A stretch of DNA of 45,356 nucleotides, from positions 561 through 45,916 of the IMG/VR virus record IMGVR_UViG_3300014819_000017; one strand, written 5' to 3'. Positions 7,809-45,356 of the stretch are shown here, piece after piece (position 1 is the stretch's first letter; the number at the start of each line of letters is the position of its first letter). This DNA comes from a virus. Position numbers and translations under genes: made by a program. The notes beneath the pieces are model-generated. The model made no database searches, was not told the DNA's origin, and saw nothing but the letters and a program-made list of their open reading frames with translations.

Positions 7809-8079
7809 AGAGGGGAAGAACCCCAAGGGCGGCTTGAATGCAAAGGGTCGCGCATCATACAAAGGCGGAACTCTTAAACCGCCAGTGAAGGCAGGAGACA
7901 ATCCGCGTCGTGCGTCGTTCCTGGCTCGCATGGGTAACATGCCAGGGCCGGAGCGGGACTCAAAGGGGCGACCCACGCGACTACTTCTCAGCCTGCGAGC
8001 CTGGGGCGCCAGCAGCAAGGCAGACGCCAGGGCTAAGGCCAAGGCTATCAGCGCCCGGAATAAGGGCAAGAGCGCGTGA
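7780..8079 (+). CDS. DUF6321-like basic protein
   Basis: 99 residues from ATG 7780 with GGAGGAG six bases upstream; it overlaps both neighbours. The sequence is a compact basic protein: TRKEGKNPKGGLNAKGRASY at the N-terminus, then NPRRASFLARMGNMPGPERD, and a helical end (LRAWGASSKADARAKAKAIS). I recognise this signature as the DUF6321-type family found in cyanophages and other environmental phages, often close to packaging genes. The function is unknown; DNA binding during packaging is a reasonable inference from charge and position between the terminase subunits. Confidence 0.65.
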   Translation: MAKTPAWTRKEGKNPKGGLNAKGRASYKGGTLKPPVKAGDNPRRASFLARMGNMPGPERDSKGRPTRLLLSLRAWGASSKADARAKAKAISARNKGKSA

Positions 8080-9569: not shown

Positions 9570-11593
9570 TGGCAAAGCCACAGTTTAAACTGCCAGACGC
9601 CGAGCAGAAGGCTCTGTCCATGGCGTCAACTGCGCTCATGATGAAGGACGTTGATCCTGCGCATGATGAGCACTATAGCATCCTCAAGGATGCGTACACA
9701 AAGAAGCAGATGCAGGAGCCTGAGCAGGCCCGACTACGATCAACATTCCGACGATACGACCACTTCTACTACCCTAATACGCTCACGCTCGGCGGTGCCG
9801 ATCACTGGGCGGAGGACCCGTCAGCTCGCACTGCCGGGCGTGCTCACGTTTCTGTCAACGTACATCCAGCATATGTGAACATTCCTGCATCGCTGCAGGC
9901 AGTACCTCCAGTAATCAACTACGTTCCAACGACGATGGACAAGGATGGTCGAGCTCAAGCGGCACGACGAGAGCGCCTGTACTTTGCCTGGGCTGAGGCT
10001 AACGAGATTGACGTACGCTTGGAGGAGGCGTGCCTGTACAAGAGCCTCTACGGACATACCGCAGCTAAGGTTACGTGGGACCCAGTGGCTGGGCTGCCTA
10101 AGGTAACCATCATTGACACCCCAGAGAACCTGTACCTAGGGTACGGAGACTCAAACTATAACCGCATTGACTGGGCGATCTACAGCTATGGGCTGAGCCC
10201 ACAGGCTGCCATGGAAGACTTTGGCATTGAGATTGTTCCAGTTCAGCACGGCAACAAGTGGCATCCATACACGTATCAGGCAAGCCACGACGATCCGCTT
10301 GCTAACGTGTACACTAAGGAATACAACCGCGACCCAAGCCGGATCAATACTGCCTATGACAACATGAAGATCACGGTGCTTGACTACTGGTACAAGCACC
10401 CAACCAAGCCAGGCAAGCCGCCGCTCGTGTGCAACGCTCTTATCGTTGGCAACACGATTGTGAAGGTTTCTAAGCACCCAGAGCTAGCTGGTGTACTTCC
10501 GTATGTCACGCTGCGCAACAGCATGATCCCAGGCAGCCCATACGGCAAGTCAGAGCTCTTTGACGTTGAGCAGCTTCTCCGTGAGAAGGACGAGCGCATC
10601 ACGGCGCAGGCGCAGATGATTCAGTCTGTTGTCGGCGGCCAGATGTGGCAGCTCGTTGGAGGCGACGCTCCGGACGAAGTTCCGGCAAATGCAATTCCAA
10701 AGCCTGGCCGCGTTGCGACGCCTGGACCTGGCAACGAGTTGCGAGCTATTACACCATTCATTCCTCAGTTCCAAGTTGAAGATTACAACAAGCGCATTGA
10801 CCGAGAAATCGCAGTGGTCACAGGCCTTAACGACCTTCTGCTGGGACTTGCTCCGTCAAGCGTTCTTGGCTCTAGCCGAGCAATCGCGTCTCTCGTAGCA
10901 AACTACGAGCAGCGCATCGCCCCTAAGCGCAAGCTTCTGTACTCGTGGATCAAGAAGGTCTGGGAGATGTCGGCTCGCATGTGGGAAGCCAAGGATAAGG
11001 CCATCAGCGAGATCATTGGCGGCGAATACCGACTTGAGATTACACCTCCAGAGCTTACACCACGAGATACACTTGAGCTTGCGCAGACTGCACTCAACCT
11101 TGTTCAGGGTCGAATCTGGAGCGCAGAGCGCGCAATGGACCGCGTCGGCGTGGAGGACCCAGAGGGCGAGAAGGACGTTATCCGCGACGAGCAGACTGAC
11201 GCCACACTCAACCCAGCTGCGGTTCTCACGATGGGTCAGCTCATGATGATGTTCCAGCAGCTACAGGCGCAACAGGCTCAGATGCAGCAGCAGCAGGCTA
11301 TGATGCAGCAGCAGATGGGTCAGCCACAGCCTGGCCAGGGAGTTCCTCCTGGAATCCAAGAGCAACTACAGGCGCAGCAGGCATCTGCTGAGAATGCGTT
11401 CCGTCAGGTAGGTCAGCCGCAAGGCACCGAGATGATGAACGGCGGCGAGATGGGCTCAGTCCCACCTGAGATGCTGCCGGAGAACGCACAGCCAGGAGCC
11501 GAGCCACAAGAGGGCGTTGGTCAGCCTGGTGACCTAGGGGCGCAGATTGCGGCTCTACGACAAAACAAAACAATCAATCGTCTAGCAAGATAA
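9569..11593 (+). CDS. Portal protein
   Basis: 674 residues, starting at ATG in a TAATG overlap with terL. The N-terminal two thirds show the expected portal pattern: a first part with ADHWAEDPSARTAGRAHVSVN, a mixed alpha/beta region that includes KVTIIDTPENLYLGYGD, and a helical stem near DVEQLLREKDERITAQAQMIQS and NLLLGLAPSS. The last 130 residues are Gln/Met-rich low complexity (QAQMQQQQAMMQQQMGQPQPG), likely disordered and possibly projecting into the capsid. It should form the dodecameric ring at the packaging vertex. Position right after terL supports this strongly, and no other candidate exists. Confidence 0.82.
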   Translation: MAKPQFKLPDAEQKALSMASTALMMKDVDPAHDEHYSILKDAYTKKQMQEPEQARLRSTFRRYDHFYYPNTLTLGGADHWAEDPSARTAGRAHVSVNVHPAYVNIPASLQAVPPVINYVPTTMDKDGRAQAARRERLYFAWAEANEIDVRLEEACLYKSLYGHTAAKVTWDPVAGLPKVTIIDTPENLYLGYGDSNYNRIDWAIYSYGLSPQAAMEDFGIEIVPVQHGNKWHPYTYQASHDDPLANVYTKEYNRDPSRINTAYDNMKITVLDYWYKHPTKPGKPPLVCNALIVGNTIVKVSKHPELAGVLPYVTLRNSMIPGSPYGKSELFDVEQLLREKDERITAQAQMIQSVVGGQMWQLVGGDAPDEVPANAIPKPGRVATPGPGNELRAITPFIPQFQVEDYNKRIDREIAVVTGLNDLLLGLAPSSVLGSSRAIASLVANYEQRIAPKRKLLYSWIKKVWEMSARMWEAKDKAISEIIGGEYRLEITPPELTPRDTLELAQTALNLVQGRIWSAERAMDRVGVEDPEGEKDVIRDEQTDATLNPAAVLTMGQLMMMFQQLQAQQAQMQQQQAMMQQQMGQPQPGQGVPPGIQEQLQAQQASAENAFRQVGQPQGTEMMNGGEMGSVPPEMLPENAQPGAEPQEGVGQPGDLGAQIAALRQNKTINRLAR

Positions 11594-14455: not shown

Positions 14456-17400
14456 TGGCTAAAATTGGCGGCAGCATTGTAGATCCAACGCCACCGTACA
14501 ATAGTGGCTCGGATAATGGCAACGGAATCAGGTCGCGTGAACTTAACGTTACGCTTACTCCTGAGTACGGCATTGAGACCGGTCGGCTACTTGATGTTCC
14601 AAACTCACTCTCCAACGCGGGTGACTCAAGCAATCCGCTAGATTACGCTGCGTCGCTGCCGTTCCGTGGACTTGGTGTAGCTGGGCAGGCTCTGGGTAGT
14701 GGAATCAAAGTTGGTGCTGATATTATCGGCGCAAGCCCGATTGGGTTTGTAGCAAGCCAGAGAATTGGCGACGGCACAGTCGGTGATGTGGTTGGTAACA
14801 TCGGCAAGGTCTTCCTTGATATTCTTGCAAAGCCTGGCGAAATTGTTCAGGACTTTGGCGCCACGCTTAGGCTTAAGACCGCCAATGGCACGTTGCCTCC
14901 AGACATCCAGGCTATGGTTGACAGTGGGGCATCAGAGGAAAGCATCATCAAGTATATGCGTGAGACTGGGCGGTCTCTTGCAAACGATAGGACGGTAAAC
15001 CTTGGCCTATCGCTACTTCTTGACCCACTGAACCTTACACCGTTTGCTCTGGGCAAGGTTAACCTGCTCAAGGGGCTTGGTAAACTTGGTACGGTAGGAG
15101 CTGGTATTGGGGTAGGCAGCGCACTCGGCCCTGTGGGTGGAGCGGTCGGTGGTCTTGCTGGCTACGCTCTTGGTGGTCGCGTAGGACAAAAGCTTGCCCA
15201 GATTGGCTGGAAGGCAGGAGCAAAGACTATTTCCAGGGAAGCTGGACTTGAACTTAGCGCCAAGGCTCGGTCAATTCAGGCATTTGAAGCTGCCGGTAAA
15301 GCAATCCCTGCGGATTTGAACAAGGGTCAATACCTCATCTACAACGAAATTGACAAGGCTATCTTCCGGCCGATGCGCAACGTTGCAAACGGCGTTAAGG
15401 AAGGCCTAAAGCTCAAGACTGGCCAACTTCTCCTCAGAGCCTACAGCGCAAACGTCATTGACGATTTCCATAAGGCTGCAAGCCAAGCATTTGGAGACGA
15501 AGCTGCAAAGTTGGGATTGCGCAGGTTTGCAATCGCAAAGACAAACTCTGTAATTCAGTCAGTATCTCGATCGCGAGTTGGAGAGGTTGAGGCAGCTGTT
15601 GACAACGTCGTGGAGAACCTTGACGCAGACGTAAACAAGGCACTGCAAGAATACGTTGACGCTCGGTACAAGGGCGTTGACGATTCCACGTTTAATAGGC
15701 TTACGCAGGCATCTGGTGATTCAATTAAGTTCCCAGGATCAAGCGACTATGTCTTGACCAAGTTGGCAGATGAAGCAGGCGAAGCTGGCCTTGAGGGCAG
15801 GTATGGAATGAGCCGAGAAGAAATTACGGCTTACATGCAGGACGCTGCGCCAGGCTACGGACCGCGTACAGACCCAGGCACAGGCTTGCGCATCGTTGAC
15901 GAGAATACCACAAAGCAAGCAGCCAAGAACCGACTGCGCAACCGTTTGCTTCAGGCACGCATGGATACAGAACTTGCCGGGTACGACCCAGTCAAGGACG
16001 CAGTACGTGCAGCTTCCAGCAATATGGATATGATTGACAACGGGCTTCTTGACGAAGTTGCGCTGGAGGTCAAGAAAGAAGCGGAGTACGTTGGCATTGC
16101 AAGCCCACTTAAGGGAACCGCATCCCAGGGGGCGGCAAAGAGGGCATACATGTATGCAGAGCGCTTGGCGACAGAACTTGCCAACGCATCCTCAGACGAC
16201 ATCTCTCGTGTCGCAGGTAGGCAGCCAGCTACCACAGCCCAGATTGAGGCTATTGCAAAATACTTCTTTGGCGACGCTAGGGTTGAAGGCAATAAGCTTG
16301 TCGGCGGAAAGTACTTTGACGACGCAGGCACGCTCTCTTCAGCCGCTAATATCTCTCGCCAACTGTCGCAGAGGTTTGCCTTTGCTCGGTCCACCACTTA
16401 CGGGTTCAACATTAACCGGATGGGCAATGTCCGCCGCGTATTGCACGTAGCATCACTCTTTGAGAAGGCAACCCTTCGCGAGAAGGAGGTCTACGTTAAG
16501 GAGATGAGCAAGGCTCTCGGCAAGCCAGTAACCGTACGGGAAATTGAGCAGATGCTACCAAGGCTGAAGGAACTTGGAGACCCGGCTGCCTACGCTCGCC
16601 CTACGTTCGTTAAGTCAACTAGCCTTATTGACACCAAGGTTGAGCAATGGATTGCTATGTTTGAGAACCTTGGACAAGAGGGCGGCCTTGTGGCTAGCCA
16701 GTACCCAGATGTTTCACAGTCAGTCATTGCTCAGCTGAACAAGGCTGCCTCACGCGGAGGACCGGCCGCAGCTGCAGAAGCAAAGAAGATCTGGGCTACA
16801 CAAGCAGCAGCTGCGTTTGAGGACGTTGCAGCGCACCACCCAGGGTTTAAGCTCACATCAGGATCTGTGTCTGCGCAGCAGGTTAAGGACTTCCTGACCG
16901 CTGCTAAGAACTCCAGCGCCACAACCGCCCGTGCAACACCTAAAGAACTTGCGGCAATTAGGGAGGCCTGGAGAGTCCTTACGGGCAATTCAGACGAGAT
17001 TGACGGGATCATTGCTGCAGCAAAGCGCGATGGCTATGAGCTCGGGATTGCTCCTGCAGATAACGTTATCCGCGAACCTCGACTCATCGCAACTGTTGAG
17101 AAGCAGGGGCTTGCAGTCCCAGAGGTAGCGACGATTGACCGTCCGTTCATTGACCTCACATCAGAGTTTGTTGATGGACTGCCGGACTTTGCAAACCCAC
17201 AGTCATACAAGGTTGGTGGAATCCGTGGCGCTATCCAGTCAATGATGGCACCAGTTCCGCAATCATTGGTATCGTCGTCAGCTGCGCAGCGATTGCAGCT
17301 TATGCTACGCAACAGATTTACTGTTGACGAGATTGACGAGTTTAACCGCAGGATTACGACACGGTCTGTTGAGACTCGCGTTGGCACCAGGGGTCTGTCT

Positions 17401-19455
17401 CAGGATACTCTTGAAGATATCATGGGCGGAATCCTGCAAGAGAAGACCGGAGCCGCCTCTGTAAAGGCTGCCTGGGCTGAGCGCATTCAGGCCCTTGAGA
17501 GGGCTGGGATTAAGAGCCCAGACCTCCAGGCAGACGTCATCAAGGCGTTTAAGGGAGAATACGATATCTCTGGCTACTCGCAATGGATCAGCGGCTCCAT
17601 GAAGACTGCCCCAGGCATTGGGAAGTTCTTGGCGCAAATCTCAGAAAACCTTTACCCAACATTGAAGTATAAGATCAACCCAATGTTCTTTGCCCAGGAG
17701 TTGGTTGAGTCTCCATTCTACGCAGAGTTGCGTGGAATGAATAGGGCGGATATGGAGGCCAAGCTTAAGGCCGCCGGTATTGATCCACGCGAGATCCGCC
17801 AGATGTTCGGAGAGCGAGCAGCCGCCCAAGCAATGCAACTGCATGAGCAGGCGTTCTTCTCCTTTACCGCAAGATCCCGAGGGGCAGCGGACTCAGCCCT
17901 GAAGGAAGGGCTCTCGGTCAAGAATATTATCGGAGAAGATGGTATAATTGCAAAGGGATGGGACTTTACCGCAAACTTCAAGGAGCAGTACCGCGACCTT
18001 ATGGCCGCAGCCGATCTTGCTCCAAAGTTCCAGCAGTTCGTGCAGAAGCATCTTCCGCACGAGTACACAGCCCTGCATGCCAAGTATGGTCCAGATGCTT
18101 TCAACCAACTAGTTGGCTGGGCAACTGAGTATAAGCGCCTGCAGACCGCAAAGTTCGGAGGCTCGGTGGTAAACACGATGAAGGCCCCTGGGTTTGGATT
18201 CGCAGTGAACCCTTCAGCTACGCAGCTTGCTGCAATCCTGAATGATGTCCGAGACGTTCTCCCAATGCACACAGCGGATAAGTTCGGAGCGCTTGTTCAG
18301 GGCGGTGCTCGACCACGAATTATTACAAGCACATTCCGAGCCAAGTTCATCAACGCAGCTCAAGATGCTGGGTATGACGTTTCATCAGCCAGGACCGCCC
18401 TTGACCAGCTTGACAACATCGCGCAGAGGTACGCCCTTGAGCTCAACCGAGTCGGGCCTAACCTTCAGTTCCTACGTACTGAGTACGACAAGGCACTGAA
18501 TACATTTGGAGTTGAGATGCGTGGCCTAACAGCCCAGCTGCAACTGGCTGATGTGCAAAAGGTTATCGTGCAAGAGTTGATGGATGCGTATATCCCTGGC
18601 TTCTCTTCAACTGCAGATGCAAGCAAGGTAATTGAGGCCATTGCCAACGCAAGGAAGTATGGCGCTAAGTTTGCTACCATGGGCAGCCTGATTGAGCAAA
18701 TCCGTCTGGATGCAGGAGACATCTCAACCCTTGGGGCAGGAGCTCGCGAGACAATCCGCGAAACAGTTAAGCGATACTCAAAGTTTGGCGGTGAGCGTGG
18801 GCAGGTTGTCCGTTCAACGCAAGACATTCTCACGGACACGACAAGCAACCTACTCCGCGACCACGCAGGGGAAGAGGCACTGTTTGAGGCAGCCAAGTGG
18901 TCATACGCAAAGTCCGTAGAGGAAATGAACAACGTAAACTACTTCAAGGCAAACCGATCTTGGTTTGAACGCAGCATCAACCATCCGTTCCTTGGGCTGT
19001 ATCCATTTTCGTACATGTTTGGCAAGGCCCTACCGGAGCTGGCACGGTTCATGTTCTACAAGCCGTTTGGCATGACCGCACCTGGAGCTGGTTACGTTGC
19101 ATACCGAAAGATCTCTGAGTACCTATCGTATAATGGCCTTCCGCCTGGATGGGAAGTTACCCAAGAGAAGCCAGACTGGCAGTTCCTCCTGACGCAGCTA
19201 ATTCCTGCTGTGCCAACCGACATGACGGTAGTGACTCCGCACTGGTTCCGCTCTGGCGTATCAACGATCTCTCGCCAAGGGTACGACCAGTACAAGGCAA
19301 CCGATCTCCTTGGGGAAACAACAGACTGGGCAGCCAGGACAGGTGTCGGTGGGTTCTTCCAGCTGGCTGCAAAGGCCGGAGCGGAGCTGAGTGGCAACGC
19401 AGCAGACTTCCTAACTGGCAAATACAATACAGACATCGGTACGTTTAGAAAATAA
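14455..19455 (+). CDS. Giant virion protein, 1666 aa, probable internal/ejection protein
   Basis: The largest complete gene, starting in a TAATG overlap. Residues about 204-247 form a Gly/Ala zipper (KLGTVGAGIGVGSALGPVGG and GAVGGLAGYALGGRVGQKL), a membrane-insertion type segment. The long middle is Ala- and charge-rich helical sequence. The C-terminal 150 residues are aromatic-rich (INHPFLGLYPFSYMFGKALP, then GMTAPGAGYVAYRKISEYL), again suggesting membrane contact. There is no recognisable enzyme motif. Such giant helical proteins with glycine zippers next to capsid genes are typical of proteins packaged in the head and ejected with the DNA. The assignment is inference from size, composition and position. 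Confidence 0.72.
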   Translation: MAKIGGSIVDPTPPYNSGSDNGNGIRSRELNVTLTPEYGIETGRLLDVPNSLSNAGDSSNPLDYAASLPFRGLGVAGQALGSGIKVGADIIGASPIGFVASQRIGDGTVGDVVGNIGKVFLDILAKPGEIVQDFGATLRLKTANGTLPPDIQAMVDSGASEESIIKYMRETGRSLANDRTVNLGLSLLLDPLNLTPFALGKVNLLKGLGKLGTVGAGIGVGSALGPVGGAVGGLAGYALGGRVGQKLAQIGWKAGAKTISREAGLELSAKARSIQAFEAAGKAIPADLNKGQYLIYNEIDKAIFRPMRNVANGVKEGLKLKTGQLLLRAYSANVIDDFHKAASQAFGDEAAKLGLRRFAIAKTNSVIQSVSRSRVGEVEAAVDNVVENLDADVNKALQEYVDARYKGVDDSTFNRLTQASGDSIKFPGSSDYVLTKLADEAGEAGLEGRYGMSREEITAYMQDAAPGYGPRTDPGTGLRIVDENTTKQAAKNRLRNRLLQARMDTELAGYDPVKDAVRAASSNMDMIDNGLLDEVALEVKKEAEYVGIASPLKGTASQGAAKRAYMYAERLATELANASSDDISRVAGRQPATTAQIEAIAKYFFGDARVEGNKLVGGKYFDDAGTLSSAANISRQLSQRFAFARSTTYGFNINRMGNVRRVLHVASLFEKATLREKEVYVKEMSKALGKPVTVREIEQMLPRLKELGDPAAYARPTFVKSTSLIDTKVEQWIAMFENLGQEGGLVASQYPDVSQSVIAQLNKAASRGGPAAAAEAKKIWATQAAAAFEDVAAHHPGFKLTSGSVSAQQVKDFLTAAKNSSATTARATPKELAAIREAWRVLTGNSDEIDGIIAAAKRDGYELGIAPADNVIREPRLIATVEKQGLAVPEVATIDRPFIDLTSEFVDGLPDFANPQSYKVGGIRGAIQSMMAPVPQSLVSSSAAQRLQLMLRNRFTVDEIDEFNRRITTRSVETRVGTRGLSQDTLEDIMGGILQEKTGAASVKAAWAERIQALERAGIKSPDLQADVIKAFKGEYDISGYSQWISGSMKTAPGIGKFLAQISENLYPTLKYKINPMFFAQELVESPFYAELRGMNRADMEAKLKAAGIDPREIRQMFGERAAAQAMQLHEQAFFSFTARSRGAADSALKEGLSVKNIIGEDGIIAKGWDFTANFKEQYRDLMAAADLAPKFQQFVQKHLPHEYTALHAKYGPDAFNQLVGWATEYKRLQTAKFGGSVVNTMKAPGFGFAVNPSATQLAAILNDVRDVLPMHTADKFGALVQGGARPRIITSTFRAKFINAAQDAGYDVSSARTALDQLDNIAQRYALELNRVGPNLQFLRTEYDKALNTFGVEMRGLTAQLQLADVQKVIVQELMDAYIPGFSSTADASKVIEAIANARKYGAKFATMGSLIEQIRLDAGDISTLGAGARETIRETVKRYSKFGGERGQVVRSTQDILTDTTSNLLRDHAGEEALFEAAKWSYAKSVEEMNNVNYFKANRSWFERSINHPFLGLYPFSYMFGKALPELARFMFYKPFGMTAPGAGYVAYRKISEYLSYNGLPPGWEVTQEKPDWQFLLTQLIPAVPTDMTVVTPHWFRSGVSTISRQGYDQYKATDLLGETTDWAARTGVGGFFQLAAKAGAELSGNAADFLTGKYNTDIGTFRK

Positions 19456-22115: not shown

Positions 22116-22954
22116 TGGATTTTAATCGCCCGATCAAGATTCAGACTGGCACCTCAACGTTTCTAGACATAAACTCATTGGCCGGAGTCAGGGTGGGCGC
22201 TTCGCCTATATCTGGTTTCAAGGTTGAATCTGCCAACTACGCAGCTGTACCTGCTCAAGGGTTCATTGACAAGGCTGCGCTTCGGGACGGTTCAAACGTC
22301 ACAGAGGCATACCTTGGCGCTAGAGGTGTTGAACTGGTTGTGTCTGTATATGGCGAGACAATTGGGGACTTCTGGGACAACATTGACACATTGACTGCTG
22401 CGTTGCAGCCAATGCCACGTGGTTTTGACTCCACTTATGGCGTTCGCGCATTGCGCTTCTTTCAGCCAACATGGGAACTTGCAACCGATTTCCCTGGAGG
22501 AATTGAGTTAGATATGCTTGTTCGCCCAGCAAGCTTGCCAGTCTATAACGTCGGGCGCCGCACATCGGTTGGAAAGGCCAGCGATGGCTTTGCGCAGCCA
22601 GCTCAGATCCGCCTGATTGCCCCAAATCCAAAGAAGTTCCTGACCACTACAAAGTCTGGAACAAACACACATAGAGGATCTGCAGCTGTATACCCAGTGC
22701 TGACTAAGGCAGATTGCGCAGCAGCAGAGGAGGTAACCTTCTCATGGACTAGCGGTGGGGTTACCAGCATAGTAGTCGCCAACGCGATTGATGCTGGTGC
22801 CATTTCTATTGACACGGACACTATGTCTCAGGTAAACTGCAGGATTAGCCATGGCGATACCAGTGGAGACTTTTTGGTATACCCAGGCTCGGTTGTGATT
22901 GATGGCAGCACTTCGAGCGGAGCGGTCGTCACGTATAGGGAGGCTTGGCTTTGA
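22115..22954 (+). CDS. Distal tail (Dit)-like protein
   Basis: 279 residues, start ATG in a TAATG overlap. The N-terminus (FNRPIKIQTGTSTFLDINSL, GVRVGASPISGFKVESANYA) followed by ARGVELVVSVYGETIGDFWD and the FFQPTWELATDFPGGIELDM stretch follows the pattern of siphophage Dit/tail-component proteins, in which a ring-forming N-terminal beta domain is joined to a galectin-like C-terminal one. It would join the tail to the fibre or hub. The next gene, a Tal-like protein, overlaps by four bases (TTGA), the usual Dit-Tal arrangement. Confidence 0.65.
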   Translation: MDFNRPIKIQTGTSTFLDINSLAGVRVGASPISGFKVESANYAAVPAQGFIDKAALRDGSNVTEAYLGARGVELVVSVYGETIGDFWDNIDTLTAALQPMPRGFDSTYGVRALRFFQPTWELATDFPGGIELDMLVRPASLPVYNVGRRTSVGKASDGFAQPAQIRLIAPNPKKFLTTTKSGTNTHRGSAAVYPVLTKADCAAAEEVTFSWTSGGVTSIVVANAIDAGAISIDTDTMSQVNCRISHGDTSGDFLVYPGSVVIDGSTSSGAVVTYREAWL

Positions 22955-25836
22955 GCAGCAGCGTCAGAATCCGCATCTTTGACATTGGGGCTAATAGGGG
23001 CGTTGGCAACGAAAGGTGCGTCATCTACGATGCCAAGAACGTCGGCTCAGAGGTATACGCCAATGACGTTGGCAGCGCCTTCTGGACTTTGCCAATCAAC
23101 CATCCTCTCGTGCCGGAACTTGTTCCACTTAAGCGCCACTACAAAGTTGAGAGGCTTAGCGGTGCTAACTGGGTACTGATTGGAGCTGGGCTCCTCACCA
23201 CGTACGACGCAACCAACGACGAGATTGTCTACGAAGGAATGGACTACATGACCATGCTTAGCATGCACTACACAAAACTGGTAGGGCCTGAGTCTGGATC
23301 AGAGGTCGCTATCAAGCGTGACGAGCCTGCTAGCACGACAGAGACGGTCACTACTACCCTGACGGCAACTCGCTCTGCCTCGACCCTGTACAACACAACG
23401 TCAGACTGGAACTCAAACGACACAGAACAGCACATGGTGATTGGCGCATTCCCATCCTCATTCACAGTTACTGGATATTATACGCAGTATGGAAGCAATA
23501 GTACGGTTCTTGTATCAGTAACCGGAAACACATTTTCCCTAGTGTCCGTTGGTCAGACAGTATATTTCTCTGGGGTCTCAGGAACAGGGGCAAGTCGAAT
23601 AAACGGGTTAAGGACTATTACCGCAAAATATGCTGGAGCTGGCAGCAGCACCTCTGGGGACTTGGCGTTTACTTCTGGAACAACAGCAATTTCATTTACA
23701 ACATCAAGCGGATATTGTTACTTTAAGCGGTACACATCAAGAGGCCTTGTAAAGTTTACTCTTCCAGATACACTGACATCAAGTGCAACTGTTACCACAG
23801 CTAACCTTATTCTTACCCAAAGTAACACTAGCGGAGACCACTCAGTAACCGACAGCTCTCCTGGTGATTTGGTAGTTAATGCGTCTGGAATTGATTGGAC
23901 AACTGACTCATCGACTGGATTAGAAGGATCGTGGGGTAATGCCAACGATACTCTTCATCCCAACTGCGACTGGGCAAGCGCTAGCTCGTCTACGTCTGGT
24001 GGCCTATCTAACATAACGTATACAGGTATTGGGTCAACACACAACTCAACACACACATTCTCAATCTCAAGTATCGTAAACTACTGGAAGGCAAGCCCTT
24101 CTAACAACAACGGTATACTGCTATACAACACAGACGAGACAGGCGTAACCGACAACTTTACAATTTACAGCACGGCCGCCAGCGCTTCGTATCGTCCAAA
24201 GCTTGCGCTTACTTACACGTACTCTACCAGCTCGGCAACCAACGTTAACGCCAATGGTCTTTCGCACGGACCTGCTGCCACTAAGGCACTGCTTAAAGAG
24301 CGCACGTCTAACAGCACTGCCCGGCACGCTGGCAACGAGATCGCGGTATACACAAGAAATGAGGCAGGCGAAGCCAACAAGATTGACATGTCGTACGACG
24401 AAGTTAACAGCGTTTACACGTTGACAGGATATACGTACATTGAGCGGTCTGCAATCAACAACAACGAGAAGCTGTACGACAGCGATCAGGACGTGTACAT
24501 CCCAAACAGATTCAACGTGAACAGAATCCGTGTGAGCATTGTTGCAAGTCCTGGCGATGAGGTCTGCACATTCAACGTGTGGCCAGACTCATGGACAGAG
24601 ATTGCCCAGCCGGAGTCTCCTGTGATGCTGAAGTGGCAACTTAAACTACGACAGCATGATTCCACCGTTGCTGAAGTGATTGCTCCAGCTTCCACTACTC
24701 CTACGTTGAGCATTCCAAGCGGTCAGACAATCTATGGTAACTACACAGGCACAACGCATAACATCACTAACTCGTACGAAATTAACTGCCTAACTAGCGG
24801 TGTGTCGTACACGTTTGCAGCGTACACTATGGCGGAGCTTGTAAACGTCTCTCCGCAGACTTCATCAACTAACCCAAACTACGGCGGAGTCATGACTCAC
24901 GACGTCAACGGAATCACAGCCAGCACTTCTTCTAGCCAGACCGTTGTTATGGGTCTTGAGAAGAAGACTCTGCAAGGTATATTTGACAAGCAAATTCCAT
25001 ACGTAATCTCACAAGGTGGGTCGTACAGTCGATTCGGGTGGCTTACGTTCCAGTTGGCATCTGGACAATCGTGGAACTCGGAATTGATTAGGTACTTTAC
25101 ATCTGGAGAATCAGTTCTGTCATACCTTCGCAACATGTGCGATAAAGAGATGGCAGCCAACCTTTTGACAGCTGATGCATCTGCAAGATGGGATGTTGTT
25201 GACGGGATTAAGATTCCTTGGAGAACCGTGTTTAACTTTGTCGGAGTGCGTGGGGCGGCTGCTCCAGGTACTAAACTGTACGTGGCTCCTGCTATTACGC
25301 AGGCAAACCCAGTGTTTGTCTTTGACTACCCTGGTATGGTTGACCAGTTCAGGTACCGTCGCAACGGCAAAGATCTTAGGAACTCGGTGAGGGTCGTACC
25401 TGCCACTGCGTTCCTCACCGGGTCCACTACCAGCTCTAGCGGTTCTCGATCGCAAGGTAAACTTGCTGAGAATGAGGCGTCCATTGAAGAGTACGGGTAC
25501 GCTCCAATCCTGTCTACACAATCAAACTTTGCCGATGCTGCAGAACTTCAGAAGTATGCAGACTCGCAGGTCACAAAGTCCAGCGACATTCTGAACGTAT
25601 CCATGGTCAGCATCCAGCTGGCACCGGATAGCGTAAAGCCGTTTGAGGACTTCTACCTTGGCGACATCGTGCGCGTGGCCGTACGGAGAGAAAACGTGAA
25701 CTATACAAACGCAGCAAACCCAGACTTTATTGCTGACACGTACGTCGTTGGAGGGGTTCGGTTTGAGCTACCAGTTGACGGATCAGAGCGTGTAACACTA
25801 GACCTAGTGAAAACGAGCGAATTCGGCAGGGGATAG
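22951..25836 (+). CDS. Tail-associated (Tal/hub-like) protein with DNRLRE-like insertion
   Basis: About 961 residues. I chose TTG at 22951, in a TTGA overlap and seven bases after GGGAGG; a TTG at 22945 is only one base from that site. The N-terminal 110 residues (VRIRIFDIGANRGVG, FWTLPINHPLVPELV) and C-terminal third (FVFDYPGMVDQFRYRRNGKD and FEDFYLGDIVRVAVRRE) resemble tail hub proteins. Between about 262 and 427 lies a beta-rich insertion with the pattern of DNRLRE domains (RGLVKFTLPDTLTSSATVTT, then YRPKLALTYTY), known from surface-adhesion proteins. It is likely the tail-tip protein contacting the host envelope. No peptidase motif is visible. Confidence 0.68.
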   Translation: MSSSVRIRIFDIGANRGVGNERCVIYDAKNVGSEVYANDVGSAFWTLPINHPLVPELVPLKRHYKVERLSGANWVLIGAGLLTTYDATNDEIVYEGMDYMTMLSMHYTKLVGPESGSEVAIKRDEPASTTETVTTTLTATRSASTLYNTTSDWNSNDTEQHMVIGAFPSSFTVTGYYTQYGSNSTVLVSVTGNTFSLVSVGQTVYFSGVSGTGASRINGLRTITAKYAGAGSSTSGDLAFTSGTTAISFTTSSGYCYFKRYTSRGLVKFTLPDTLTSSATVTTANLILTQSNTSGDHSVTDSSPGDLVVNASGIDWTTDSSTGLEGSWGNANDTLHPNCDWASASSSTSGGLSNITYTGIGSTHNSTHTFSISSIVNYWKASPSNNNGILLYNTDETGVTDNFTIYSTAASASYRPKLALTYTYSTSSATNVNANGLSHGPAATKALLKERTSNSTARHAGNEIAVYTRNEAGEANKIDMSYDEVNSVYTLTGYTYIERSAINNNEKLYDSDQDVYIPNRFNVNRIRVSIVASPGDEVCTFNVWPDSWTEIAQPESPVMLKWQLKLRQHDSTVAEVIAPASTTPTLSIPSGQTIYGNYTGTTHNITNSYEINCLTSGVSYTFAAYTMAELVNVSPQTSSTNPNYGGVMTHDVNGITASTSSSQTVVMGLEKKTLQGIFDKQIPYVISQGGSYSRFGWLTFQLASGQSWNSELIRYFTSGESVLSYLRNMCDKEMAANLLTADASARWDVVDGIKIPWRTVFNFVGVRGAAAPGTKLYVAPAITQANPVFVFDYPGMVDQFRYRRNGKDLRNSVRVVPATAFLTGSTTSSSGSRSQGKLAENEASIEEYGYAPILSTQSNFADAAELQKYADSQVTKSSDILNVSMVSIQLAPDSVKPFEDFYLGDIVRVAVRRENVNYTNAANPDFIADTYVVGGVRFELPVDGSERVTLDLVKTSEFGRG

Positions 25837-32930: not shown

Positions 32931-33316
32931 TTTCCCTACTACTCGCCCTGACTCTATCGGTGGCCCAGCCTAGCGGGTACCACGAAAGGGTTAGGGCGAC
33001 GTGGTATGGCAATACTCATCCGCAGAGCCAGAAGTTCTGCTACGGCGGCTACAAGAACACATGCAGCCCATATAGCAAGGGCGAGAAGGTCATGTACGCT
33101 GCAGTTCCGGGATTCAGGTGGGGTGATATGCCGTACAGGGCGAACGTGTGCTACAATGGTAAGTGCGTGGCGGTCGTTGTACGCGACTGTCTGTGCAGCC
33201 GAAGGGGGGAGTACATTGACCTCTCTCCGGCAGCATTCATCGCGCTAGGCAATAAGCTGAGTAGGGGTGTGTTATGGGTAACGGTGAACTACGAAACGTA
33301 CCGTGGCGGACGCTAA
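32927..33316 (+). CDS. Secreted RlpA-like (double-psi beta-barrel) protein
   Basis: 129 residues from TTG in a TTGA overlap. Residues 1-15 (MISLLLALTLSVAQP) look like a signal peptide. The mature part matches the RlpA/DPBB pattern: RATWYGNTH near the start, then VVVRDCLCS and EYIDLSPAAFIALG, corresponding to the conserved RD and D-L-S-x-A-A-F motifs. Six Cys in the mature part could form disulfides, fitting export. RlpA-type barrels bind or cleave glycan strands of peptidoglycan, while plant expansin-type relatives loosen walls. Sited between helicase and methyltransferase rather than in the lysis cassette, it may help spread lysis or modify the wall. Confidence 0.72.
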   Translation: MISLLLALTLSVAQPSGYHERVRATWYGNTHPQSQKFCYGGYKNTCSPYSKGEKVMYAAVPGFRWGDMPYRANVCYNGKCVAVVVRDCLCSRRGEYIDLSPAAFIALGNKLSRGVLWVTVNYETYRGGR

Positions 33317-34308
33317 CCAACGCATCGTTCTTCTCGGGCGTAGGAGGGATGGATCTTGGGTTTGAAAGAGCAGGAATCAAAACAGTCAGCTTCAGCGAGA
33401 TTGAGCCGTACCAAAGTGGAGTCCTTGCCAGACATTGGCCAGGAGTACCGAACCTCGGAGACATCGTATCACTCGCAGATCGTGAGCTTTCCCAGCAGGT
33501 ACAGCAGGCAACCGACACAGTTCAACGACGTGGCGGACACACTGACGATCAGTGCGGGACCTCCGGCTGTAGCAAGTGGCAGCATGCCGACATCTTCTCA
33601 GGAGGATTCCCATGCCAAGACCTCAGCGCAGCTGGTGCCAGAAGAGGATTTGAAGGGAAGCGATCAGTCCTTGCATTCACCTACCTTGACCTTGTGGAAC
33701 TCTACCGACCTGCCTGGCTGGTGCTGGAAAACGTCCCAGGTCTACTCCATTCGTCTGGCGGACGCGACTTCGCCAGACTCATTAGTGAAATGGAAGAACT
33801 CGGGTATGGCGTGGCGTGGCGAGTGCTGGACGCGCAATACTTCGGAGTCCCCCAAAGGCGGCGTCGTGTCTTCATTGTGGCAAGTCTTGGATCAGACCGT
33901 GCCGGCGAAGTACTTTTTGAGTGCGAAGGCGGCTGCAGGCATATTGCGTCGGACGCTCAAGAGGAAGGCGGGGCAGAAGCTCCCGCCAATGCTGACCGAC
34001 GTACTGTCTCAAATCTCAACGCAAGCAAATCCGGATGGAGGGTCGGGGCCGAGGACGCCGCAGGTGGGCAGCTCATCTTGGGCACGGAGGATGACGCCCG
34101 TGGAATGCGAGCGTTTGATGGGTTGGCCGGACGGGTGGACAGTAAACCCCCAGTGGCGGGGGAAACGGGGCTCTACGGGCCGGAAATAGGCCTCTACGGC
34201 GATTCTGTGGAGGGGTTGGACACGAAAAGATACACCTGCTGTGGAAACGGAGTCGTGTCTAGCGTTGCGGAGTGGGTCGGCCGTCGGATCGTAGCTTGCG
34301 CAGACTAG
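33274..34308 (+). CDS. C5-cytosine DNA methyltransferase (main frame, motif IX missing)
   Basis: 344 residues starting at ATG 33274 inside the end of the RlpA-like gene. Motif I FFSGVGGMDLGFERAG, motif IV with catalytic Cys GGFPCQDLSAAG (Cys near residue 115), motif VI WLVLENVPG, motif VIII FGVPQRRRRVFIV and motif X TCCGNGVVSSVAEWVGRRI are all in this frame. The protein transfers a methyl group from S-adenosylmethionine to cytosine, likely protecting phage DNA from restriction. The usual motif IX before motif X is absent here and is found instead in the +1 frame (34085-34141). Either this enzyme works without it, the second protein supplies it, or the sequence has two compensating indels. Confidence 0.88.
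   Translation: MGNGELRNVPWRTLTNASFFSGVGGMDLGFERAGIKTVSFSEIEPYQSGVLARHWPGVPNLGDIVSLADRELSQQVQQATDTVQRRGGHTDDQCGTSGCSKWQHADIFSGGFPCQDLSAAGARRGFEGKRSVLAFTYLDLVELYRPAWLVLENVPGLLHSSGGRDFARLISEMEELGYGVAWRVLDAQYFGVPQRRRRVFIVASLGSDRAGEVLFECEGGCRHIASDAQEEGGAEAPANADRRTVSNLNASKSGWRVGAEDAAGGQLILGTEDDARGMRAFDGLAGRVDSKPPVAGETGLYGPEIGLYGDSVEGLDTKRYTCCGNGVVSSVAEWVGRRIVACAD
33356..34189 (+). CDS. 277-codon gene nested in +1 frame of the methyltransferase
   Basis: Open from ATG 33356 to TAG 34187-34189, entirely inside the methyltransferase gene, in the +1 frame. It is not a featureless shadow. It contains SSQEDSHAKTSAQL, NSGMAWRGECWTRNTSESPK, SSLWQVLDQTVPAKYFLSAK and AAAGILRRTLKRKAGQKLPP, which I recall as conserved blocks of a phage protein type annotated next to Dcm-like genes. 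At its end is RRMTPVECERLMGWPDGWT, the methyltransferase motif IX. No ribosome site is clear before ATG 33356, so the start is uncertain. It may be translated separately or by frameshifting, or arise from indels. I rate expression as probable, not shown. Confidence 0.55.
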   Translation: MGLKEQESKQSASARLSRTKVESLPDIGQEYRTSETSYHSQIVSFPSRYSRQPTQFNDVADTLTISAGPPAVASGSMPTSSQEDSHAKTSAQLVPEEDLKGSDQSLHSPTLTLWNSTDLPGWCWKTSQVYSIRLADATSPDSLVKWKNSGMAWRGECWTRNTSESPKGGVVSSLWQVLDQTVPAKYFLSAKAAAGILRRTLKRKAGQKLPPMLTDVLSQISTQANPDGGSGPRTPQVGSSSWARRMTPVECERLMGWPDGWTVNPQWRGKRGSTGRK

Positions 34309-37265: not shown

Positions 37266-37521
37266 GCAACCTCCAGTTGTCTACAATTTCAATGGCTGTA
37301 ACCTTCAACCCAGTGGCATTGTCAGTTAGATTCTTCATCTCTCCACCAAAATCAATCTCAACAACATCGTCTCCGGCCCCCGATGAGACCATACCGATTG
37401 CTTGGCGTGCGAACTGATGGAAACCTGGCTGAGTGATTGGTGGATAAAGATTGCTAGTTAAATGGTAGTCTAGTGCTGCGTCCTTAGCGAGCTCGATTGC
37501 TCTGTCTTTGTTAAAACCCAT
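37210..37521 (-). CDS. Unrecognised 103-aa protein
   Basis: ATG 37521 with AAGGAGG upstream and the stop of the RadC-like gene within it. The N-terminus is helical (DRAIELAKDAALDYH) followed by PPITQPGFHQFARQAIGM, a DFGGEM segment and an acidic end (SEEDESGDTG). No motif is recognised. It is translationally coupled to the RadC-like gene by a nine-base overlap region. Confidence 0.55.
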   Translation of the reverse strand: MGFNKDRAIELAKDAALDYHLTSNLYPPITQPGFHQFARQAIGMVSSGAGDDVVEIDFGGEMKNLTDNATGLKVTAIEIVDNWRLHDFIGSEEDESGDTGLTS

Positions 37522-37987
37522 GGCTGTCCTCCTTGCTGAGCATTGCCCAGATATTTGGCTTCTGCGAACGGATACTTGCGTAGTTGTTGTCACCGATTAC
37601 TAGATGGTCTAGCAATGTAAGGTCATGATATCCACACGCACGTAATACTTCCTCAGTTAGGTTAACATCTTGATCAGATGGCTCTGAATCGCCTGATGGG
37701 TGGTTATGTACCATAATGAATCCTACTGCGCCGGTAAGCAAAGCTGGTCGCAACAGATCAGCAATAGATACTGATGTGCCTGTTGCTGTGCCCTTGAATA
37801 CTTGAGTTACGCCAATGAGATTATTGCGACCATCAACACTCAATACCCATAGTGCTTCCTGAGTATAATCTTGTGCCACATCTTTGAAGTAGTTCACAGC
37901 TGATTGAGGTGACTCAATCCTGGGACCTACTTTGTCATTCCACGTACGAATAACTGTTAGTTCGTACGCTTTCCACGTATGTTCCAT
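37511..37987 (-). CDS. RadC/JAB-like metalloprotein
   Basis: 158 residues from ATG 37987, three bases after GGAGGGA; a longer version starts at 38080 but overlaps the previous gene. The JAMM zinc motif is clear: VHNHPSGDSEPSDQD (about residues 105-119), preceded by LWVLSVDGRNNLIGVTQVFK and followed by HDLTLLDHLVIGDNN. This is the MPN(+)/RadC family (DUF2466) found in many phages and mobile elements. The enzyme activity is not known; roles in DNA repair or anti-restriction have been proposed for relatives. An in-frame MPHGAGGN segment lies just upstream. Confidence 0.82.
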   Translation of the reverse strand: MEHTWKAYELTVIRTWNDKVGPRIESPQSAVNYFKDVAQDYTQEALWVLSVDGRNNLIGVTQVFKGTATGTSVSIADLLRPALLTGAVGFIMVHNHPSGDSEPSDQDVNLTEEVLRACGYHDLTLLDHLVIGDNNYASIRSQKPNIWAMLSKEDSHGF

Positions 37988-38046
37988 ATTCCCTCCTGCC
38001 CCGTGGGGCATATCGCTGAACTTTGATGGAAGCTTAATCGCTTTCA

Positions 38047-38598
38047 TCAGAATACTCGATAGCCATCGAGTCCTAGGCAAAGATCACTAAATTCTAGGAA
38101 CTCAATGATTAGATTAGTGTCAGCATTGACCTCATCATCAACAGTGAATGGCACTTCAATCAGCTGACCATTCTCCATCTTATAGGTAGTATCTTTCTCG
38201 CGAGTCTCCTTGACATACTCAGCAACCACTGGCTTAATGGACTCACGGATGTCATTGAACAGATCAGTCGTGTTCTCGTACAGCTCTGGGTAGAGGCCGG
38301 TGAACATGCTGATGTGCGCCAGATACTCCTTGATGCCAGCTGGTGTGCACTGATTGCCGCTATTATCCATAGTGGCCATTGCGAACTCTGCTGGGTATTC
38401 GCCGCCATTAAGTGTAACAATCTTGTCCAAGATTACGCGGATCATTGACATACCCCAGATGTTAGCTCGGAAGTACAGGTTATCGGAGCCTGTGTACTCC
38501 CCAGTCTTTTCATCAAATAGGTATGTATACTCATACTTTTTGGCAAACTCTGCTGCCTTAGCTCGATCACCGTTTACAGATTCAATGTCGTATCCCAT
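38047..38598 (-). CDS. Unrecognised protein, 183 aa
   Basis: ATG 38598 sharing a base with the previous stop (TAATG). Acidic, with recognisable stretches AAEFAKKYEYTYLFDEKTGE, DNLYFRANIWGMSMIRVILD and LFNDIRESIKPVVAEYVKE. No catalytic motif is evident. A 60-base gap with a GCCCC/GGGGC palindrome separates it from the RadC-like gene. Confidence 0.6.
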   Translation of the reverse strand: MGYDIESVNGDRAKAAEFAKKYEYTYLFDEKTGEYTGSDNLYFRANIWGMSMIRVILDKIVTLNGGEYPAEFAMATMDNSGNQCTPAGIKEYLAHISMFTGLYPELYENTTDLFNDIRESIKPVVAEYVKETREKDTTYKMENGQLIEVPFTVDDEVNADTNLIIEFLEFSDLCLGLDGYRVF

Positions 38599-41954: not shown

Positions 41955-42191
41955 TTGCCGGCTAACCCGCGCAACTATAGGCAGGAGTATGATCGGTATC
42001 AGGGTAAGCCTGACCAGATCAAGAATCGTGCTTCCCGAAATAAGGCTCGCGCTGCTGTCGCGAAGAGCAAAGGCAAGACCGCTATAAAAGGCAAGGATAT
42101 CGACCATAAGGACGGTAATCCTCGCAATAACTCACTTGCCAACCTACGACCGCAGAGTAAGCATGTAAACCGACGGAGATTGAATGGCTAA
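41955..42191 (+). CDS. Small HNH-endonuclease-like protein
   Basis: TTG at 41955, immediately after the previous TAA; 78 residues. The N-terminus (NYRQEYDRYQGKPDQIKNRA) and end (DIDHKDGNPRNNSLANLRPQ, then SKHVNRR) match a compact HNH type common in phages, with DH, N and H of the motif present (DHKDGN, NN, NL, H). Such proteins often assist packaging or cut DNA near the terminase genes. Active-site geometry cannot be checked. The giant gene overlaps by eight bases. Confidence 0.7.
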   Translation: MPANPRNYRQEYDRYQGKPDQIKNRASRNKARAAVAKSKGKTAIKGKDIDHKDGNPRNNSLANLRPQSKHVNRRRLNG

Positions 42192-45100
42192 AAGGAAAGT
42201 AGCAAACGATCTACCAGTTGACTACGCCGACATGTCCAAAGCAGATCAAATGCGTGTGCTTTCGGAGCTTTCTCGCGGAGTAGATAGGAAGCCACGAAAC
42301 AAGAAGCCGTCTGAAGCCAGGACACCAGATGAGTTGGACGCAATCCGACGATCTGGAGAAATGTCTAACCTTTCTGGCGGCGCTTCCGACGTCGTGTATC
42401 TTTCCGAGCTTGAAGATGTCCTTAAGATTAATTGGGAAAACGCCACAATCAAGCCAAAAGACATTGTCATCGTCTTTGGGGCTAACGAGGGAAATGCAAC
42501 CAAGGGCACAAATAAGTCCAATGCCGGCCAGGCACTTGCCGCATACAAACTTAAGCAGGCAGGATTTACAATCCTAGGTATCCCGACGCGTGGCGGAGGA
42601 GAGGCGAAGGGTCCGATTACATACCTGAGGGACGATTACCTTGAAGGGCTAAACGACCCATGGCGCAAGCTTATGAACGAGCAGATTGCAAATCTTCGTC
42701 AAGCAAAAGAATCCGGTAAGATTATTGTATTTCCTCGCAAGGGTATTGGAAGTGGTTATGCTAAACTTCGTGACAACGCTCCTAGAATTGCGCAAATTCT
42801 AGATCAAGAACTTGCAAAACTTGGAATTGACAACGCAACTGGGATGAAGCCAGAAGACTTTGTTAAGTTTGAAGAAGAAGCAAAGAGCACCACGGCAGTA
42901 AAGCCAGAAGTTACTGCAGATTTTGCTAAGCCAACACCAGCAGCTGAAATTCCACAAAAAATTTCCGAAACTGCTGCGCCGAAGCCTCCGTCCGCGGTCG
43001 TTGACGCCGTTGTGGCTGTGGCAAAGATTGACAAAAACGGCAAGGTTGAGGGTGGCACTGGGTGGGCAACTGAAGGCGCACTGCTGCGCGGAATCCCGAC
43101 ATACGTCTACGACCAGGTTACCGACAGGTGGTACACGGCAAACTCACCACAAAAATCTTTCCAAGGATGGAAAACAGTTGATGGACCTCCAACAAACGTA
43201 AGGTCAATTGCAGGAATTGGATCTCGCACTCTTTCAGAGCGCGGGTACCAAGAGATCGTTGCCTACGTTGAGTCGCTTGACAAGAGCGTTGTAATCCATA
43301 GCGGCGGAGCCGGCGGGGCCGATACTGCGTTTGAGGAAACCCACGCAAAGCGTGGCGGAGAAGTTGTCTCTCACTCGTTTGAGGGGCACAGTCGACCAAG
43401 CACGGCTGCCGGACAGGTTATCCATAGCCGCAGTGATTTGGTGTCAACACGCGCCGAAGTAGACGCCATTGGCAAGTCACTTGGCAAGTCAATCACTTGG
43501 GACAAGCCTGATCGAAGACCAGGCGACAATACAGAAGAACTTGTCATGCGCAACATGTTCCAGATTGCACCTGGACGTGACGTTCCTGCCCAGGCAGCGC
43601 AGGCAACACCTGCTCGCGTACCAGAGATGAGCAGCAACGCCAGACTTAATGCTGCCGCCATCCCAAACAACATCTATAGTGCAGCTGGCAAGAACGTCAA
43701 CGGCATGTCCGCATTTGAACGCGGATTGCGTGCTGCACTAACAAATCCAACTAACGATCTTGCAAACTTTGTTGATCCAGAAAGCGGACGCCAATCTCCG
43801 CAGGACTCGTATGCGCAAGGCAGCATTAAACAAAAGTATCCTGTCGTTTACGAAGGCAAGGTGTTCCCATCGGCAGAGCACGCGTTCTTTTACTACCAGA
43901 ACGAACTCAACCTTAGCGAATCTCCAAAGCTTAGCGCAGAGAGAAACGCAGCAAACCTACAGCGCGCAGAAGAGATCATGGGCAAAATCATTGCGGAGAA
44001 GCTTCGCCAGCATCCGCAACTTGTTGCTGGCATTGAGAAGGTTGCTGCACAGGAAGGCATTACGCCTGAAGAGTGGATTGCGAAGCAGTCGCATTACACC
44101 GGTAGGGCTGCCACGCGAAAGCCATCTCACTGGACTGGAGACGGACTTGAGTCTGGTTTCCTTCGGGCGCTCAGCCAAGGTTACTCAATGGCGAAGCAGC
44201 AACCACGCAGCCTTCCAAATAGCACTGACCCAGCGTCAATCCTAGAGCACGATATGCTCGTAAAGTGGGCCCAGTCTGATGCAAACTGGAAGTACTTCCC
44301 AACCGTTGATCGGTTTGGGAAATTCCGATCTAAGCAGAACTACTACGTAAGCGGCACAGTAAATCAAGCAGTTGAAGTCGCAGCATCCTTCCAGACAAAG
44401 GCGGCAATGGCTAAGACAGTTGAAAGCAAGGCAGCGTTTGAGGCTCAGGCAGAACGCGTACTCCAGGAAAGCAAACTTGACTCTGGGATTCTCCGTGCTT
44501 GGTCAAAACTTTCTGAACTTGCAGTTGGTAAGGTATCAGATGCTTCTGCGCGGACTCGCCTTAGCCGAACTATTGGAGCAACATCTGCATTCGGCACATA
44601 CTACGACTCACCAGTGCAGGATAAACTTGCGCAGCTTGACCCAAGCGTCAAGGGCAAGACAATCCCAAACGTTATTGCTGACATTGCTGCAGAAAATGGC
44701 GTAGATCTTTCCTCTAACAAGACACGGTCATTCGGAATCCCAACTGCCGACAGCCCTGACACAATGCAGACGAAGGCTGGGATTGAGGAGACCATGCGCA
44801 AGTTTGTTATTGCTCTTCGGGCAGTAACCGACGCCAAGCGAAAGTTTGACCAGGTTGGCATCACTCCAGACAGTCGTCTTGGTAAGGGCGGTACGCTCTC
44901 TGAAAAAAACGCACGAGACCTGTCGCTTGTAATCATGAAACTCTCGTCAATCCTTAAGGATTACGCTGATCCATCGCTTGCCATTGAGGCAACCAAGATG
45001 CAACGATTCGGAGGAGAGGCTCAGCGCGGAACGCTATCCCCTGGCGCAGAACTTGCAAGCAAGATGGTTGCTCGCGGAGAGAATTTGAGCGAAGAAGAAA

Positions 45101-45356
45101 TCAACAAGATCTCCAAGTTTACTCGACGACAGGCTGAAGCTTATGCTCGGGCCATGGGAATTGAGATGGGCAATATCGGTGAGGTATCAAAGGCCTACAA
45201 CCGCCCACTGGCTGGAGAGGTAGACCACTCGCTACCAGAGCAGCGATTTGTTGACTCACTTGTTCCGCCGCCAGTTCCAAAAGAAAAGGCAGAGAAGAGA
45301 GCAGTTGAAAGCGCCGAGCGCAAGTTCCAGGCAGCTGTAGAGGAATCGTATGGGTT
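42184..45356 (+). CDS. Giant protein with GIPT-motif Rossmann-like, SLOG and NADAR domains (3' end outside)
   Basis: ATG 42184, open for 1057 codons to the window edge. Domain 1 (about 68-217) has IVIVFGANEGN, FTILGIPTRGGGEAKG, TYLRDDY and KIIVFPRKGIGSGYAKL, a DUF7831-like pattern. A short segment at about 286-328 (GGTGWATEGALLRGIPTYVY) resembles half of another Rossmann-like module. Domain 2 (about 339-464) is SLOG/DprA-like: AGIGSRTLSERG and VVIHSGGAGGADTAFEETHA. Domain 3 (about 552-668) is NADAR/YbiA-like: EGKVFPSAEHAFFYY and PSHWTGDGLESGFLRAL. The remaining 390 residues are helical and unrecognised. All three folds handle NAD- or nucleotide-derived ligands in relatives. Size and position suggest a virion-carried protein. 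Confidence 0.8.
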   Translation, partial: MAKRKVANDLPVDYADMSKADQMRVLSELSRGVDRKPRNKKPSEARTPDELDAIRRSGEMSNLSGGASDVVYLSELEDVLKINWENATIKPKDIVIVFGANEGNATKGTNKSNAGQALAAYKLKQAGFTILGIPTRGGGEAKGPITYLRDDYLEGLNDPWRKLMNEQIANLRQAKESGKIIVFPRKGIGSGYAKLRDNAPRIAQILDQELAKLGIDNATGMKPEDFVKFEEEAKSTTAVKPEVTADFAKPTPAAEIPQKISETAAPKPPSAVVDAVVAVAKIDKNGKVEGGTGWATEGALLRGIPTYVYDQVTDRWYTANSPQKSFQGWKTVDGPPTNVRSIAGIGSRTLSERGYQEIVAYVESLDKSVVIHSGGAGGADTAFEETHAKRGGEVVSHSFEGHSRPSTAAGQVIHSRSDLVSTRAEVDAIGKSLGKSITWDKPDRRPGDNTEELVMRNMFQIAPGRDVPAQAAQATPARVPEMSSNARLNAAAIPNNIYSAAGKNVNGMSAFERGLRAALTNPTNDLANFVDPESGRQSPQDSYAQGSIKQKYPVVYEGKVFPSAEHAFFYYQNELNLSESPKLSAERNAANLQRAEEIMGKIIAEKLRQHPQLVAGIEKVAAQEGITPEEWIAKQSHYTGRAATRKPSHWTGDGLESGFLRALSQGYSMAKQQPRSLPNSTDPASILEHDMLVKWAQSDANWKYFPTVDRFGKFRSKQNYYVSGTVNQAVEVAASFQTKAAMAKTVESKAAFEAQAERVLQESKLDSGILRAWSKLSELAVGKVSDASARTRLSRTIGATSAFGTYYDSPVQDKLAQLDPSVKGKTIPNVIADIAAENGVDLSSNKTRSFGIPTADSPDTMQTKAGIEETMRKFVIALRAVTDAKRKFDQVGITPDSRLGKGGTLSEKNARDLSLVIMKLSSILKDYADPSLAIEATKMQRFGGEAQRGTLSPGAELASKMVARGENLSEEEINKISKFTRRQAEAYARAMGIEMGNIGEVSKAYNRPLAGEVDHSLPEQRFVDSLVPPPVPKEKAEKRAVESAERKFQAAVEESYG

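Follow-up and report, generated by a model that had tools for sequence, protein, structure and literature searches.

We report a giant phage gene in the window analysed here, a stretch of 45,356 nucleotides (bases 561-45916 of the 45,916-base IMG/VR virus record IMGVR_UViG_3300014819_000017), and show that the N-terminal third of its product is built of domains that are exchanged as modules between closely related phages. The protein joins a DUF7831 domain, a circularly permuted SLOG domain and a divergent NADAR-like domain to a conserved core and tail, and each module is under purifying selection. Our preferred explanation, to which we give a probability of about 0.55, is that this is a polyvalent-type protein, ejected into the host with payloads directed at signals based on nicotinamide adenine dinucleotide (NAD) and ADP-ribose (ADPr).

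A giant gene with an exchangeable N-terminal third

The N-terminal part of the gene is an open reading frame (ORF) that begins with an ATG at 42184 and runs open to the contig end (42184-45356, plus strand; 1057 aa), and its start is kept in the related contigs L009 and L005. The C-terminal part (1-3090, plus strand; 1029 aa) shares 87% identity with residues 1338-2388 of the homologue in L003 and 73% with the C-terminal part of that in L004. In relatives the gene is a single intact ORF (2388 aa in L003, 2533 aa in L004 and 2252 aa in L009; 1,968-2,556 aa over the intact relatives). Since these proteins cover both pieces, with the product of 42184-45356 aligning to L003 residues 285-1095 at 93%, the contig was opened inside the giant gene, and a separate gene at 1-3090 is ruled out. 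The first 550 bases of the record match L003 residues 1151-1333, and a gap of 10 Ns (bases 551-560 of the record, directly before window position 1) falls within the gene; thus the record was scaffolded. The junction of the contig ends lacks about 55 residues. Judged by its intact relatives, the complete protein is about 2,300 residues long, so that the 'over 1000 residues' of a first-pass annotation, made from the sequence of the window, describes the ORF but not the protein.

Comparison of the giants by blastp places the start of a constant core, common to all of them, right after the module section (44251-45354, plus strand). The C-terminal tail (2308-3087, plus strand), at 32-92% identity across the family, contains a Gly-rich hydrophobic stretch (AAMMTIGGLLGGAVGAFGGGFGAIGG) that hydropathy supports in L003, L004 and L009, and a profile of the tail matches 13 of 20 records of the group. 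We count the occurrence of one giant gene with constant core and tail in nine phages as support for a polyvalent-type ejected protein.

A search with the terminase large subunit (TerL) recovered 47 viral contigs at 82-100% identity. The group has no TerL match among GenBank phages, and neither TerL nor the giant protein has a match among 50,697 phage records. The comparison covered nine giant genes whose N-terminus is known, with lineage counts taken from a small TerL tree; contigs that re-sample known ones (L002, L007, L008, L010-L017, L019-L021, L026 and L084-L093) were excluded from genome counts. We denote the modules as D (DUF7831), H (HYE module), S (permuted SLOG), P (cpYpsA-type SLOG), N (NADAR-like) and X, Y and Z (unnamed). 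The N-terminal third then reads D-S-N in the window phage and in L072, D-H-S-N in L003, X-H-P-N in L004, D-H-N in L009, Y-D-S-N in L071, Y-D in L073, P in L074 and Y-Z in L075, which makes eight combinations in nine phages, followed in every giant by the start of the same core. The second SLOG type, cpYpsA (PF12694; phrog_10774), occupies residues 565-660 in L004 and 28-182 in L074. Module Y is common to L071, L073 and L075 and module X corresponds to L004 residues 1-290; neither has known relatives.

Exchange is evident between the nearest relatives, as in none of the three closest pairs do both members have the same module set: the window and L009 (TerL 97%), L071 and L072 (94%), and L074 and L075 (94%). 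The last two share 82% identity over 1,720 residues that follow unrelated N-termini. L003, whose near-identical sister contig has a TerL 98% identical to that of the window, is close to the window in SLOG (92%) and in the NADAR-like domain (96%), yet matches it at only 29% in DUF7831. Modules also move between branches, since the cpYpsA SLOGs of L074 and L004 are 52% identical despite a TerL identity of only 79%. Ratios of non-synonymous to synonymous substitution (dN/dS) of 0.05-0.26 across modules indicate purifying selection on each. The linker ADFAKPTPAAEIPQKISETA (residues 245-264; 42916-42975, plus strand; 70-100% identity) is kept in 4 of 4 close relatives regardless of the modules that flank it, and could possibly act as a recombination anchor. 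That different ADPr-related modules stand at the same place in close relatives suggests a quickly changing counter-defence payload.

DUF7831, permuted SLOG and NADAR-like domains

The three domain calls of the first-pass annotation stand, DUF7831 through a Pfam match above the cut-off, SLOG through phrog_768 and NADAR through profile-profile homology. Of the profile searches that it had proposed, that for NADAR in Pfam missed the third domain: even at E<=10, PF08719 matches neither the window nor any of four related records, while control genomes do match. DUF7831 (PF25176, E=1.4e-10) spans residues 89-208 (42448-42807, plus strand) and scores 41.5 bits against a Pfam cut-off of 27, with 51.6 bits in L003. 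Its dN/dS between the window and L009 is 0.26, and it is also found as a stand-alone protein in Caulobacter and Rhizobium phages. An NAD or nucleotide ligand, as first proposed for it, is unproven. Identity with a macro domain was rejected, the hhalign score against YmdB being 10.7 where shuffles reach 20.0 (a weak test, with one macro protein only), and a PDB search with DUF7831 gave nothing convincing.

The SLOG domain matches phrog_768 at E=2.2e-15. With each piece scanned apart, the GGTGWA half, which is normally C-terminal, matches profile positions 129-165 (residues 272-308; 42997-43107, plus strand; E=1.3e-7) and reaches to about residue 338 by alignment. It is followed by the normally N-terminal half with GIGSR, SGGAGGAD and RNMFQI (residues 341-461; 43204-43566, plus strand), which matches positions 5-121 (E=1.4e-8). 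As the two pieces match in swapped order, the window SLOG is circularly permuted; unpermuting it increases the columns aligned to stand-alone phage SLOG proteins from 119 to 161 and the score from 98 to 116. The glycine motifs GIGSR and SGGAGGAD are retained, and the phrog_768 motif set (GSR, GGxxGxD and RNxxQI) is present in full. The DprA-like phage SLOGs of phrog_768 in Antha, BF17 and Vibrio 2.275.O share the GIGSR, SGGAxGAD, RNxYQI and GGTxWA motifs with the window but differ in circular order: Antha begins at GSR, BF17 and Vibrio 2.275.O carry GSR at the C-terminus, and the window begins at the GGT half. On these alignments the phage DprA-like SLOG family is found in at least three circular orders (L106, L107, L108 and window 42997-43566). 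A link to Thoeris-type sensing, as drawn in the first-pass annotation, is not upheld for this permuted member of the DprA-like family, for which no ThsA-specific similarity was sought or seen, the kinship being one of superfamily.

The third domain (residues 485-675; 43636-44208, plus strand) is accepted as homologous to NADAR, a relationship detectable by profile-profile comparison only. Against 13 known NADARs (YbiA and 12 phage proteins), hhalign gave a probability of 96.8% and a score of 68.6; the best of 100 column shuffles scored 20.6, reversed NADAR 16.4 and same-protein blocks without the domain at most 22. With a six-sequence profile of the domain, YbiA was the sole match at E<=1 among 177,635 PDB sequences. 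The NADAR-only profile at first matched TAL-effector repeats, which we discarded because the matches arose from repetition within a 24-residue stretch.

Structure prediction, a check the first-pass annotation had proposed, went part of the way. A model of the NADAR-like domain alone reached a predicted template-modelling score (pTM) of 0.75 and one of all three domains 0.34, and neither had a significant match in the PDB (8bau at E=6.5 for the former; DprA 3uqz at probability 0.94 but E=0.1 for the latter). Among viral structures, 10 of the 18 best matches to the NADAR-like model were NADAR or YbiA-type 'swarming motility protein' (best E=0.025, none at E<=0.001). The weak structure matches include a 1,401-aa DUF7831 protein of crAss-like phage cr131_1 (BFVD A0A7M1RV35), and a similar giant may exist in crAss-like phages.

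The domain shares with the NADAR family (E. coli YbiA, DarT1-associated NADAR and T4 gp30.3) the PxxxxGKxxPSxEHA strand-helix start, the EKLRQxPxL helix, the Trp and the phage-type His; retained in the window are E565, W650 and, at the phage-type position, H637. This His, invariant in all six sequences, appears to stand at the site of the last-strand acidic residue. It lies exactly at W-8 in L071 and L072, as in YbiA, with five extra residues before the Trp in the window clade. The last-strand catalytic residue is Glu in YbiA. In phage NADARs the catalytic Asp of that strand is replaced by His (PMC11543638, PMC11125620).

Unlike the NADAR family, the domain escapes the Pfam model and has lost the phosphate-binding Lys (K95 in E. 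coli C7, K50 in P. nicotianae), whose position is taken by Gln572 in the window and by Ser or Asn in L071 and L072. The lGR motif, the W contact, the Asp before the Trp and the C-terminal GkNxLG motif (GkNxLGxxL in the family) are also gone. K95 is essential for guanine-ADPr hydrolysis by the E. coli C7 NADAR (PMC11543638), and since this Lys and other ligand residues are lost, the erasure of ADP-ribose from guanine proposed in the first-pass annotation should not be assumed. H637, E565 and the EKLRQxP motif are invariant across relatives at 42-49% identity, and the domain is under strong purifying selection (dN/dS 0.055-0.18). We consider it probably active or binding, and on its residues would not file it as a NADAR of the DarT1-antitoxin type.

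Genomic setting and possible fate of the protein

As the first-pass annotation recognized, the gene stands among virion-type genes. Downstream on the same strand follow a tail-fibre assembly or adaptor-type protein (3417-3788; phrog_1084 E=7e-23, phrog_3304 E=2e-8), a collagen-like tail fibre with a tail collar domain (3785-5905; Pfam Collagen and Collar, PHROGs tail fibre), TerL (8076-9569; phrog_2, phrog_38), the portal protein (9569-11593; phrog_332, phrog_64) and then a capsid protein. Fibre genes lie between the giant gene and TerL in the window clade. When circular records in G006 are taken into account, the coordinates place the giant gene on the TerL strand, 4-8 kilobases upstream of TerL, in each of the 8 genomes for which both positions are known. 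Its place and size fit an ejected cargo protein.

Several other features of this region were observed. The tail fibre has a long collagen-like Gly-X-Y region, seen as a strong repeat array in the DNA. Three more very large proteins (949, 1666 and 963 aa), without convincing Pfam or PHROGs matches, are encoded at 11606-19455 and 22945-25836, two of them in the structural block that follows the portal gene and the third beyond the capsid genes. Non-structural genes include a DNA methyltransferase (33274-34308) and a match to the DNA-repair family phrog_10276 (37511-38080).

We infer ejection, the type of ligand and a role in counter-defence, and picture these as follows. The giant protein would probably be a packaged component of the virion that enters the host by ejection, and the conserved core and Gly-rich tail would serve packaging, ejection or passage through the membrane. 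The N-terminal third would be a set of interchangeable domains for binding or processing NAD- or ADPr-type nucleotides, represented in the window phage by DUF7831, the permuted SLOG and the NADAR-like domain, and these would act at once on ADPr-based alarm signals or modifications of the host. More tentatively, the giant may be a fixed delivery body with a polymorphic N-terminal payload, like polymorphic toxins, whose NAD/ADPr modules would be swapped at shared linkers between near-identical phages as these track host NAD-signal defences, the NADAR-like domain having a new specificity.

If the protein does act in this manner, the phage would bring a ready-made NAD/ADPr counter-defence into the cell together with its DNA and ahead of the expression of any of its genes, and the pattern of module swaps would preserve a natural trace of the NAD-signal defences in use among the hosts. 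Biochemistry would gain new substrates in the permuted SLOG and the Lys-less NADAR-like domain, and DUF7831 would gain a functional context, in a phage group that is abundant in metagenome contigs.

Several points weigh against an ejected NAD/ADPr payload. Presence of the protein in the virion is argued from gene position, and hub domains of polyvalent proteins (MPTase, ArdC, MuF and ADP-ribosyltransferase) have no Pfam match in those parts of the window and of related giants that were scanned. The NAD label for DUF7831 is a guess, and the NADAR-like domain, lacking the essential Lys and other ADPr contacts, may not use ADPr. A host search with the portal protein found no relative among 84,980 genomes, which leaves no host defence system to be matched.

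Other explanations place the same domains in different roles. It is conceivable, if doubtful, that the modules sense or soak up nucleotides without catalysis. They would then bind NAD-derived signals, either to sequester them or to switch some other activity of the giant protein. Such a role would agree with SLOG motifs that are kept while NADAR catalytic contacts are lost, and sensor roles of SLOG have been discussed (PMC9503650), but the invariant H637, E565 and EKLRQxP in such divergent relatives suggest an active site rather than drift.

A toxin-antidote set in cis, in which the HYE module would be an ADP-ribosyltransferase (ART) acting on host targets and the NADAR-like domain would guard phage molecules or tune the modification, appears unlikely. 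In the HYE module (L003:1209-1619, L004:6891-7301 and L009:1212-1619), an invariant His-Tyr, a further Tyr and a Glu follow one another as they do in H-Y-[D/E] ARTs. This motif-only lead is of interest because an HYD1-clade ART with H-Y-E, YarT, forms a published toxin-antitoxin pair with a YbiA-type NADAR (PMC11125620), and ARTs are the commonest modifying enzyme of polyvalent proteins (PMC5512222). Against it, the module has no Pfam, PDB or phage match, and the window phage has no HYE module yet retains the NADAR-like domain.

It is more improbable still that the NADAR-like domain defeats DarTG1 by stripping ADP-ribose off the guanines of phage DNA. In vitro, guanine-ADPr is hydrolysed by NADARs from E. 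coli strains and from an E. coli phage (PMC11125620), and the homology and the retained E565, H637 and W650 are in keeping with this activity. The substitution of the essential Lys and the loss of the lGR, W, D and GkNxLG elements oppose it, and NADARs from outside DarT1 operons gave cells no protection against DarT1 in a 2024 study (PMC11125620). Equally improbable is a structural or ejection protein whose N-terminus bears decorative, receptor- or envelope-facing domains outside NAD biology, for although the gene adjoins fibre genes and module exchange resembles that of tail-fibre tips, three module types (SLOG, cpYpsA and NADAR) come from intracellular nucleotide-related superfamilies, not carbohydrate-binding folds.

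Relation to known systems

An early-acting factor related to NAD or ADPr, the central idea of the first-pass annotation, is supported in general terms but was already in print as a prediction (PMC9503650, PMC7824862, PMC5512222). Phage NADAR, SLOG and Macro proteins have been predicted to counter ADPr-derived signals, some of them packaged, and SLOG-NADAR fusions are described in jumbo phages (PMC9503650, PMC7824862). The phage SLOG/Macro/NADAR/DUF4326 fusions likewise unite SLOG and NADAR in one polypeptide and are predicted to act on soluble ADPr derivatives. These domains are described as typically standalone, whereas in the window they sit on a virion-type protein of ~2,300 residues together with DUF7831, the SLOG permuted and the NADAR without its canonical residues.

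The polyvalent proteins of phages and conjugative elements (Iyer 2017, PMC5512222) are likewise very large and multi-domain, are encoded with the portal-terminase module and are predicted to be packaged and injected. NADAR and SLOG are absent from the text of that paper and, unlike in polyvalent proteins, the window giant carries its payload only in the N-terminal third, with contents that vary between near-identical phages. The crassvirus capsid cargo proteins (PMC10172136) are also giants, shown in the virion and ejected through the tail; they include RNA polymerase subunits rather than NAD-type modules. Beside these systems, the phage group itself is new, and so are the N-terminal exchange between near-identical phages, the occurrence of a permuted SLOG in a protein of this kind and a NADAR-like domain without the Lys.

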